This document shows positions 52,094 to 54,807 of a stretch of DNA of 64,000 bases, one piece after another (the stretch's first letter is position 1; the number at the start of each line of letters is the position of its first letter). This DNA is from Arsukibacterium sp. UBA3155. Lineage in GTDB: Bacteria; Pseudomonadota; Gammaproteobacteria; Enterobacterales; Alteromonadaceae. The DNA lies in the NCBI GenBank assembly GCA_002364615.1, contig DEYP01000018.1, positions 62,001 to 126,000 on the forward strand, in the 5' to 3' direction. The notes below the pieces were generated by a model that searched no databases, had not been told where the DNA came from, and was given only the letters and a program-made list of their open reading frames with translations. The position numbers and the translations under genes were made by a program.

Positions 52094-52777
52094 ATGCTGC
52101 AGTTTGATCAGGTCAGTAAAAGCTATCCGGGTGGTTTCGTCGCGTTGGACAGAATCAGTTTTCGGTTAGAGAAAGGTGAAATGGCGTTTTTGACCGGCCA
52201 TTCTGGTGCCGGAAAAAGCACCTTGTTAAAACTGATTAGCCTGATCGAACGACCCAGTGCTGGCAGGGTATTAATTAACGATATTGAGTTAAGCCGGATT
52301 AAACGCAGCCAAATCCCTTATGTAAGACGTGACGTTGGCATTATCTTTCAGAACCACCGTTTGCTGATGAATCATACTGTTTTTGACAATGTCGCATTGC
52401 CTCTGGTGATAGAAGGCTTCACCGGCAAAGAGATGGTAAAACGGGTGCATGCAGCGCTGGATAAAGTGGGGTTACTGGATAAAGTACGATGTTTACCCGC
52501 CACCTTATCAGGTGGTGAGCAACAGCGGGTTGGTATTGCCAGAGCTGTGGTAAATAAGCCGCCATTATTGCTGGCAGATGAGCCGACCGGAAACCTGGAC
52601 CCGGATTTGTCAAAAGACACCATGCGGGTATTTGAGGCATTTAATCAGGTTGGCGTATCGGTATTGGTGGCCACCCATGACCTGGGGTTGGTGGCACGAA
52701 TGAAATATCGCACCCTGACCTTAAAACAAGGTCGAATGATTAACGATGGCTTGTTGCAATATCAGGAGCCGGTATGA
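52094..52777 (+). CDS. ftsE: Cell division ATP-binding protein FtsE
   Basis: ABC-type ATPase that with FtsX forms a divisome complex controlling cell-wall hydrolysis. 227 aa: Walker A GHSGAGKST, signature LSGGEQQRVGIARA, Walker B LLLADEPTGNLD, switch ATHD. Together with FtsX it activates EnvC, whose gene is at 55.7 kb in this same window. The stop overlaps the ftsX start (ATGA). Confidence 0.97.
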   Translation: MLQFDQVSKSYPGGFVALDRISFRLEKGEMAFLTGHSGAGKSTLLKLISLIERPSAGRVLINDIELSRIKRSQIPYVRRDVGIIFQNHRLLMNHTVFDNVALPLVIEGFTGKEMVKRVHAALDKVGLLDKVRCLPATLSGGEQQRVGIARAVVNKPPLLLADEPTGNLDPDLSKDTMRVFEAFNQVGVSVLVATHDLGLVARMKYRTLTLKQGRMINDGLLQYQEPV

Positions 52778-53754
52778 GTATTCTGTTTACCGGACGGGCA
52801 ACCGGCGCGGCAGCTAAGAAAATAGGGTTATTACGACGTTTTATCATGTTCTGGCTTAATCATGCTCGCCAGGCAGTAGCAAGCCTGGGTGAATTATGGC
52901 GAACACCGTCGGCATCTATTTTAACCATTGCCGTGCTGGGTGTTAGCTTAACACTTCCGGCCACCTTGCACCTGCTGGTGAAGAATATGCAGCAAATTAG
53001 CAGCAGTTTTACCCAGGCAGCGGAAATAAGTTTGTATATTCGAGATCAAACCCCGGCGAATCAGGTGCAAAGTCTGGTTACGATTTTACAGGCTGATCGC
53101 GATATCGCACAGGTGATTTTCGTCAGCAAGCAACAAGCGATGACGGAATTTCAGGCAATATCAGGTTTTGGCGCGGCACTGAATTATCTGGATAGTAACC
53201 CACTGCCCGATCTTATCCGGGTATTACCGAAGAATACTGCTCCTCAGGCAGCGGAAACGCTGCTCGAACGATTGAGTGCTGAACGGGTGGTTGAGTTTGC
53301 CAAGTTGGATATTGACTGGCTTACCCGGTTAAATGCGATTGTCAGCATGTTGCAACAAGCGGTGGCTATTATCGCCTTACTGTTGTTAAGCGCTGTGTTA
53401 CTGATTGTCGGTAACACTATCCGCTTGTCTATCATGAATAAAAAAGACGAAATTGAAGTAATGAAACTGGTTGGTGCAACAGATGCTTTTATCCAACGCC
53501 CTTTTTTGTACACGGGGGTTTGGTTTGGTATTTTTGGTGGTTTGCTTGCGTTTCTGGTAGTAGAGCTAATGTTATGGTGGCTGCAGAGTGCGATCAGCAA
53601 TGTTACTGCGCTCTACCAAAGTGATTTCAGCCTGAAGGCAATGAGTTTCAGTGAGTTTCTGGCCTTACTGCTGATTGCGGTACTGCTTGGGCTGGCAGGG
53701 TCCTATCTGTCAGTGCGCCGACATATCAGTGCCATTGAACCTACCGGTCCTTAA
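52774..53754 (+). CDS. ftsX: Cell division protein FtsX
   Basis: Membrane partner of FtsE with four helices (about 50-69, 195-222, 244-270, 293-313) and a large periplasmic loop (about 70-190) that recruits EnvC. 326 aa. Family wording: TPSASILTIAVLGVSLTLPATLHLLVKN, MNKKDEIEVMKLVGATDAFIQRPFLYTG and the C-terminal GSYLSVRRHISAIEP. Third gene of the operon. No hairpin terminator follows; the rpoH promoter region begins within 65 nt. Confidence 0.96.
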   Translation: MSILFTGRATGAAAKKIGLLRRFIMFWLNHARQAVASLGELWRTPSASILTIAVLGVSLTLPATLHLLVKNMQQISSSFTQAAEISLYIRDQTPANQVQSLVTILQADRDIAQVIFVSKQQAMTEFQAISGFGAALNYLDSNPLPDLIRVLPKNTAPQAAETLLERLSAERVVEFAKLDIDWLTRLNAIVSMLQQAVAIIALLLLSAVLLIVGNTIRLSIMNKKDEIEVMKLVGATDAFIQRPFLYTGVWFGIFGGLLAFLVVELMLWWLQSAISNVTALYQSDFSLKAMSFSEFLALLLIAVLLGLAGSYLSVRRHISAIEPTGP

Positions 53755-53818
53755 TAATAAATAATTATTAAAGAAATACTTTTAGAATAACCAAATCTCA
53801 AAAACTTATGATCGACAA

Positions 53819-53848
53819 TTAGCACTCTTGCGTAAAGAGTGCTAATAT
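53819..53848 (+). promoter_or_regulatory. Perfect CIRCE element overlapping the rpoH promoter
   Basis: TTAGCACTC (53819-53827), N9 (53828-53836), GAGTGCTAA (53837-53845): an exact match to the CIRCE operator bound by the heat-shock repressor HrcA. TTAGCA (53819-53824) and TAATAT (53843-53848), 18 bp apart, could be the -35 and -10 of a promoter built into the element. The rpoH ATG lies 36 nt after the repeat. There is no T tract, so it is not a terminator of ftsX. Confidence 0.85.
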
Positions 53849-53881
53849 CCATCTATTCGATTGAAACAGGATTGGCAAAAC

Positions 53882-54742
53882 ATGACAACCATAGCAGATA
53901 AAGCAGAATTCATGCCGCTTACCGTCGCAGCCAGTGGCAGTCTTGAGGCATACACTCATGCTGTAAGTACAATACCGATGTTAACAGCTGAGCAAGAGCG
54001 TAATTTAGCTGAACGTCTGCAGCAAGATGGTGATTTGAAAGCAGCCCGTCAATTGGTGATGTCTCATTTAAGGTTTGTAGTACACATTGCCCGCAGCTAT
54101 TCAGGCTACGGTTTACCCATTAGTGATTTGGTGCAAGAAGGCAATATCGGTTTGATGAAGGCTGTTAAGCGCTTCGACCCCACTGTTGGTGTGCGCCTGG
54201 TATCTTTTGCTGTGCATTGGATCAAAGCCGAAATACATGAGTTTGTATTGAAGAACTGGCGCATTGTTAAAATTGCCACGACTAAAGCACAGCGAAAGTT
54301 ATTTTTTAATTTGCGAAAAGCAAAAAAGCACCTGGGCTGGTTCAACCAGGACGAAGTGAAGCATGTTGCCGAGTCGCTCGGTGTGGCAGAACATGAAGTT
54401 CGGGAAATGGAATCCCGGATGAGTAACTACGATATGCCGTACGACGCGCCGGACGAGGACGATGATTCTGCCTATACCGCGCCGGTTTACTATTTGCAGG
54501 ATAAGGCATCTGACCTGGCTGTTCAGGTTGAAGACGAGCAATGGGACACTGCTGCAGCGGATCGGTTGCAAGCGGCAATGCGCACGCTGGACGATCGCAG
54601 TCAGGATATTGTTCGGGCGCGTTGGCTGGATAATAACAAACTTACGTTGCAGGAGCTGGCAGAGCGTTATCAGGTGTCTGCTGAGCGTGTACGCCAGCTT
54701 GAAAAAAATGCCATGAAAAAACTGCATTCTGCGCTGAGTTAA
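53882..54742 (+). CDS. rpoH: Heat-shock sigma factor RpoH (sigma-32)
   Basis: Alternative sigma factor for heat-shock genes. 286 aa from the ATG at 53882; the frame is open to a TTG at 53861. Region 1.2/2 ([67 protein letters not shown], shown as consecutive family blocks) is followed by the RpoH box around [13 protein letters not shown], which distinguishes sigma-32 from RpoD, and region 4 ([28 protein letters not shown]). Downstream of ftsYEX as in E. coli. The CIRCE repeat upstream suggests repression by HrcA, unlike the E. coli gene. Confidence 0.97.
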
Positions 54743-54780
54743 CGCCTTTGTCGTTAGCGTACTGACGCTAACAGCATAAA

Positions 54781-54807
54781 AAAAACCTGCCGCGGCAGGT
54801 TTTTTTA
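54781..54807. terminator. Terminator after rpoH
   Basis: Perfect palindrome ACCTGCCG/CGGCAGGT (54785-54800) flanked by an A tract before and T7 after, so it can act on both rpoH and convergent yibQ. A second stem GTTAGCGT (54753-54760) / ACGCTAAC (54765-54772) lies just upstream. Confidence 0.9.

Follow-up and report, generated by a model that had tools for sequence, protein, structure and literature searches.

The window, that is, the whole 64-kb stretch of DNA that was analysed, carried rpoH, the gene for the heat-shock sigma factor sigma-32, on the forward strand (53882..54742), and its product was assigned to RpoH by the curated equivalog model TIGR02392 (413.6 bits; cut-off 323.1). The upstream neighbour on the same strand was ftsX (52774..53754; TIGR00439, 358.6 bits), and a terminator-like hairpin, recognised by eye, followed rpoH (54780..54806, forward strand; CCTGCCGCGGCAGG then TTTTTTT). 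The 127-nt gap between ftsX and rpoH contained a perfect inverted repeat of the CIRCE pattern TTAGCACTC-N9-GAGTGCTAA, the predicted operator of HrcA, which read TTAGCACTC-TTGCGTAAA-GAGTGCTAA on the forward strand (53819..53845; 0 mismatches). An exact CIRCE repeat 36 nt before the rpoH ATG (53882), as claimed in the initial annotation, was confirmed by the pattern search of the window; the end given there (53848) also covered the last three bases of TAATAT. CIRCE was the sole match in the window at ≤3 mismatches (mean of 0.04 in 100 shuffles). From base composition, a perfect CIRCE was expected 6e-5 times per 3.89-Mb genome, yet it was present in 31/31 genomes of the genus, 24 to 36 nt before rpoH; the probability of a chance match is negligible, and this reading was rejected as refuted by the conservation of the element.

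Both hexamers of the promoter proposed in the initial annotation were present at the predicted spacing of 18 nt: TTAGCA, a weak −35-like hexamer within the left CIRCE arm (53819..53824, forward strand; 4/6 to TTGACA), and TAATAT (53843..53848). A consensus scan of 53740 to 53900, however, returned no sigma-70 promoter; the limit of the scan was 9/12, and TTAGCA and TAATAT, at 4/6 each, fell under it. The case for a promoter came from the TG one base before TAATAT and from conservation. Read together, GAGTGCTAA and the following TAT gave TG-C-TAATAT, presumably an extended −10 motif, and TGCTAATAT, the right CIRCE arm plus TAT, is predicted to serve rpoH as an extended −10 (53840..53848, forward strand). 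At the −10 place, TAnnnT occurred in 105/109 rpoH sites vs. 8/47 groES sites (rpoH sites: genus 31/31, other Alteromonadaceae 25/29, order 18/18, class 31/31). As the −10 was completed at rpoH sites and rarely at groES sites, the rpoH operator appears to overlap its predicted promoter. In g42 (a genus of the family) and f20 (another family of the order), the sequence before CIRCE also read by eye as a sigma-70 promoter, so that an operator on the promoter was not the sole arrangement. Column counts for the 31 loci of the genus showed a further conserved block before CIRCE (53779..53803, forward strand; genus consensus TTTTTAGAATAAGCAGATCTAAAAA); it may represent a second promoter, whose −10 would be TAGAAT, or else a different binding site. 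A sigma-32 promoter of rpoH itself was rejected (best 5/13 mismatches). Tandem copies of CIRCE, mostly ~31-34 nt apart and a possible cooperative operator, were observed before rpoH at L062, L063, L064, L069 and L108, and at twelve loci of f7 and f14 among L272-L300.

The initial annotation had proposed a check of the genome for hrcA and for other copies of CIRCE before groES and dnaK. The host genome (3.89 Mb; 99.79% complete) had one hrcA (PF01628, E 3.6e-38), followed by grpE and divergent from an NAD kinase gene. The protein combined a winged-helix part, with the SATVRN / SPHTSAGR stretch, and the PF01628 domain, and its residues 7-157 matched the solved HrcA 1STZ (E 2.7e-19), which we take to be a Thermotoga-type HrcA. 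Its closest named relatives were seven Arsukibacterium records (90-96% identity), and beyond Arsukibacterium the relatives were from Alishewanella, Rheinheimera and Alkalimonas, in fair agreement with the initial annotation, which had pointed to Rheinheimera and its relatives. The other copies of CIRCE were absent at ≤2 mismatches from both groES and dnaK, and the site before rpoH was the only one at ≤2 mismatches in the whole genome. At 3 mismatches there was one further match (C22:62386), and a reversed-pattern control gave as many. CIRCE was also absent from groES in 30/30 fetched genus loci (best 6-9 mismatches of 18). A classical HrcA regulon, in which groES, the hrcA-dnaK operon or both are targets, was not found; with groES and dnaK lacking CIRCE, rpoH was the sole recognisable HrcA target in this genome, and HrcA seems to be left with one predicted target, rpoH, in the host and its relatives.

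Conservation of the region upstream of rpoH, which the initial annotation had suggested comparing among relatives, was complete in the genus: hrcA was present in 31/31 genomes, as was the perfect CIRCE, and the CIRCE arms were invariant across the 31 loci while the spacer took 12 forms. In the family, hrcA was above the cut-off in 52/246 genomes (a 53rd hrcA, that of G092, fell under it), and the family genera with hrcA were nine of 52 (g1, g42, g46, g59, g60, g66, g69, g73 and g74). CIRCE at ≤1 mismatch occurred in 54/246 family genomes, 52/52 with hrcA vs. 2/194 without it, site and regulator being gained and lost together in these kin-related genomes; this kinship makes the Fisher p for the co-occurrence (2e-51) much too low. 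One genome with CIRCE and no hrcA, G161 (95% complete), had the site before rpoH, and its genus-mates had hrcA. The surroundings of the site were read in 42 of the 54 genomes (12 were not fetched), and in 41 of the 42 it lay before rpoH. The exception, G174, which also had no hrcA, carried a CIRCE-like perfect palindrome (L061:1501-1527) elsewhere than before rpoH, and its inner bases extended the stem. In genomes without hrcA, seven fetched matches at 2 mismatches had no rpoH alongside, and CIRCE was absent from the 250 nt before rpoH in 30 genomes of 30 genera (best 5-9 mismatches of 18). Three family genomes with hrcA, G021 (of the genus), G248 and G275, had one further 2-mismatch match each, with surroundings unread. 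In nine genera of the family and two genera of another family, rpoH was the only recognisable target.

Promoters of the sigma-32 type were scored against the consensus CTTGAAA-N11-16-CCCCAT (13 positions), as given in the available part of PMC545781; random 150-nt stretches of the window reached ≤2 mismatches in 0.7%. A promoter of this pattern preceded hrcA at ≤2/13 mismatches in 18/18 genus loci, and its use by sigma-32 is predicted. Outside the genus the same promoter was unevenly distributed (6/7 in g42, 14/20 in f7-f14, 3/4 in f20, 2/6 in g66/g69, 4/15 in g74/59/73/60/46 and 1/30 in class loci), start codons of hrcA being approximate in all of these counts. The groES gene carried CTTGG...CCCCATATA, 1-3/13 mismatches from the consensus, in 30/30 fetched genus loci (31 were found), and dnaK of the host had a sigma-32-type promoter at 2 mismatches. 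The initial annotation had placed HrcA and sigma-32 in series; the presence of hrcA, the conserved operator and the missing site where hrcA is missing made this connection the best reading, but the sigma-32-type promoter at hrcA turned the one-way series into a loop. In the genus, sigma-32 seems to raise HrcA and HrcA to repress rpoH, which would make the loop self-limiting.

In the order, sites at both groES and rpoH were present in 14/14 examined genomes of f7 and f14 (12 with tandem sites at rpoH), and sites at rpoH only in 4/4 genomes of f20 (two genera), two of which, G671 and G722, had one further 2-mismatch match each, unread. In a class-wide sample, hrcA was present in 268/369 genomes and CIRCE at ≤1 mismatch in 269/369. 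Sites were classified for 38 of these 269 genomes, among the matches listed (75 sites) and not as a random draw, and CIRCE preceded rpoH in 31 of the 38, in most cases along with a groES site, groES in 33 and hrcA in 9; sites L193 and L194 stayed unclassified, and groES of L160 was assigned by visual inspection of the translated sequence. Given this frequency before rpoH (31/38 among the matches listed) and a prediction for Geobacter (PMC545781, available part), the wiring was not peculiar to the host organism, for which the initial annotation had proposed it. Control of rpoH by HrcA is probably old in Gammaproteobacteria, as judged from the distribution of sites. The class and order distribution also indicates that the rpoH-only lineages probably shed the groES site, and the unusual feature is that groES lost its CIRCE site.

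At the start of the rpoH mRNA, a stretch of 256 nt beginning at 53855 was not more structured than expected (z +1.32), and no Rfam match was obtained in 53700-54200. An RNA thermosensor at the rpoH start was rejected, as z was +1.32 here and ranged from −0.45 to +2.39 at nine loci of the family; the E. coli rpoH start, taken as a yardstick, had z −1.55. Mean z was +0.15 in 23 family loci with hrcA vs. −0.58 in 30 loci without it; loci with hrcA were slightly less structured (p = 0.04, uncorrected for kinship), a weak lead.

For all 100 of 100 HrcA proteins, identity to 30 HrcA of the class was averaged by group. Outside the winged helix, the mean was 44% in f7-f14, which have groES and rpoH sites, 36% in f20, 31% in g74/59/73/60/46, 23% in g1, 22% in g66/69 and 16% in g42. 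Within the winged helix, identity was 61, 53, 48, 51, 53 and 46%, respectively. The identity of RpoH to the class was 55-57% in every group, and that of GrpE to f7-f14 was 40-44% in every other group; with RpoH and GrpE steady, the faster change lay in HrcA, mostly outside the DNA-binding part, in the rpoH-only lineages. In a quick HrcA tree, g42 and g1/g66/g69 stood apart, with long branches. The divergence is compatible with relaxed constraint as well as with re-tuning, and with HrcA so divergent outside the DNA-binding domain, its sensing of heat and GroEL may differ. The AlphaFold model of HrcA had a mean pLDDT of 52.5, the N-terminal part alone being confident. In g42 (L303-L308, L268), HrcA matched PF01628 only at E 1e-7 to 1e-12, and the CIRCE sites at rpoH were still perfect.

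The element is, by its sequence, an HrcA operator in an rpoH-only HrcA regulon, its function being predicted. The favoured reading, with a probability of about 0.75, is that of an HrcA operator lying on a sigma-70 promoter of rpoH, in an HrcA/sigma-32 loop with rpoH as the sole recognisable target. Binding and repression by HrcA, with relief on heating, would then operate as follows, the dependence of HrcA on GroEL being assumed by analogy with other bacteria. In the unstressed cell, an HrcA dimer would cover the extended −10 and keep rpoH transcription low. With GroEL occupied by unfolded proteins, or HrcA inactivated by heat, HrcA would leave the operator and rpoH would be transcribed. Sigma-32 would then turn on groESL, dnaK and hrcA-grpE, all three of which have a sigma-32-type promoter and no CIRCE, and fresh HrcA, matured by fresh GroEL, would turn rpoH off again. 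As HrcA has no other recognisable target, its entire effect would run via sigma-32.

Three other readings were weighed against this loop. The inverted repeat might act in the mRNA, as a hairpin affecting stability or sensing temperature, and not as an HrcA operator. It is indeed a perfect inverted repeat, and a second promoter in the block at 53779..53803 would give a transcript that includes it; transcripts of the predicted promoter, however, would start past the repeat, its distribution followed hrcA in the family (52/52 vs. 2/194 genomes), its arm letters were invariant where a hairpin would permit paired changes, and the Rfam match was absent, all of which make an mRNA hairpin highly improbable. 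A less remote, still improbable reading is that the regulon is the usual one, with groES and dnaK also bound by HrcA through over-degenerate sites and rpoH as one more member. The classified class genomes, with a groES site in 33/38 and an rpoH site in 31/38 among the matches listed, are in line with it, but the host genome had no other site at ≤2 mismatches, and groES was at best 6-9/18 mismatches from CIRCE and carried a sigma-32-type promoter in 30/30 fetched genus loci.

The most serious competitor, although itself doubtful, accepts that HrcA binds CIRCE at rpoH and supposes that it senses a signal other than heat or GroEL, so that the loop would set the resting level of sigma-32 and not its response to heat. 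The fall in HrcA identity outside the winged helix from 44% in f7-f14 to 36-16% in the rpoH-only groups, with RpoH and GrpE steady, speaks for such a change, but relaxed constraint after the loss of a target would look alike, and the presence of grpE within the stretch fetched for hrcA (97/100 loci), together with the sigma-32-type hrcA promoter of the genus, fits a role in protein folding. A bolder version of the favoured loop makes HrcA of Alteromonadaceae a dedicated rpoH repressor in a closed sigma-32/HrcA circuit, with a sensing part re-tuned away from the GroEL-titrated type and with the loop doing some of the work of an mRNA thermosensor of rpoH; this final element was prompted by the weak lead from mRNA structure (z +0.15 with hrcA vs. 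−0.58 without), and the proposal as a whole is speculative and rather unlikely.

Among known systems, the closest likeness was to Geobacter sulfurreducens, for which a CIRCE before rpoH was predicted in 2004; by the available part of that paper, a perfect CIRCE lies close before rpoH there too and the genome has both hrcA and sigma-32, but groESL and hrcA-grpE-dnaK-dnaJ also carry CIRCE, whereas in the host only rpoH does (PMC545781). The operator sequence and the HrcA family were the same as in the regulon of Helicobacter and Bacillus, in which, according to the accessible portion of PMC6032397, a GroE-dependent HrcA acts on the groES and hrcA operons; in contrast, the host target was a sigma factor gene, no chaperone gene had a site, and hrcA was under a sigma-32-type promoter. 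The host shared with E. coli the gene order ftsE-ftsX-rpoH and sigma-32-type promoters at groES, dnaK and hrcA-grpE, and differed from it in that E. coli had no PF01628 match (control) and no CIRCE in the ftsX-rpoH gap (best 8 mismatches). In E. coli, RpoH is controlled by translation and stability. No HrcA with rpoH as sole target was found among the titles and abstracts listed from the open-licence literature. The HrcA regulons of beta- and gamma-proteobacteria were reportedly treated by Permina and Gelfand in 2003, a study that may already list rpoH, and the HrcA-rpoH wiring in gamma-proteobacteria may already be in print.

HrcA, the negative heat-shock system, and sigma-32, the positive one, are usually presented as parallel systems, and here they are apparently joined via a single operator, so that two mutations, a deletion of hrcA and a change of the operator, would show what share of a sigma-32 response can be achieved by controlling rpoH at the level of transcription. 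Across the lineages there was a series, with sites at groES and rpoH, then at rpoH only, then with neither hrcA nor site, which suggests a possible origin of the E. coli arrangement, the order of events being a conjecture.

The hrcA gene of one class relative (G603:C30:12559-13224) had one in-frame TAG, from a pseudogene or a sequencing error. At L270 (G048:C1:3030089-3030175), a second HrcA-like fragment, in a 109-aa frame and under the cut-off, was located ~3 kb from a full hrcA.
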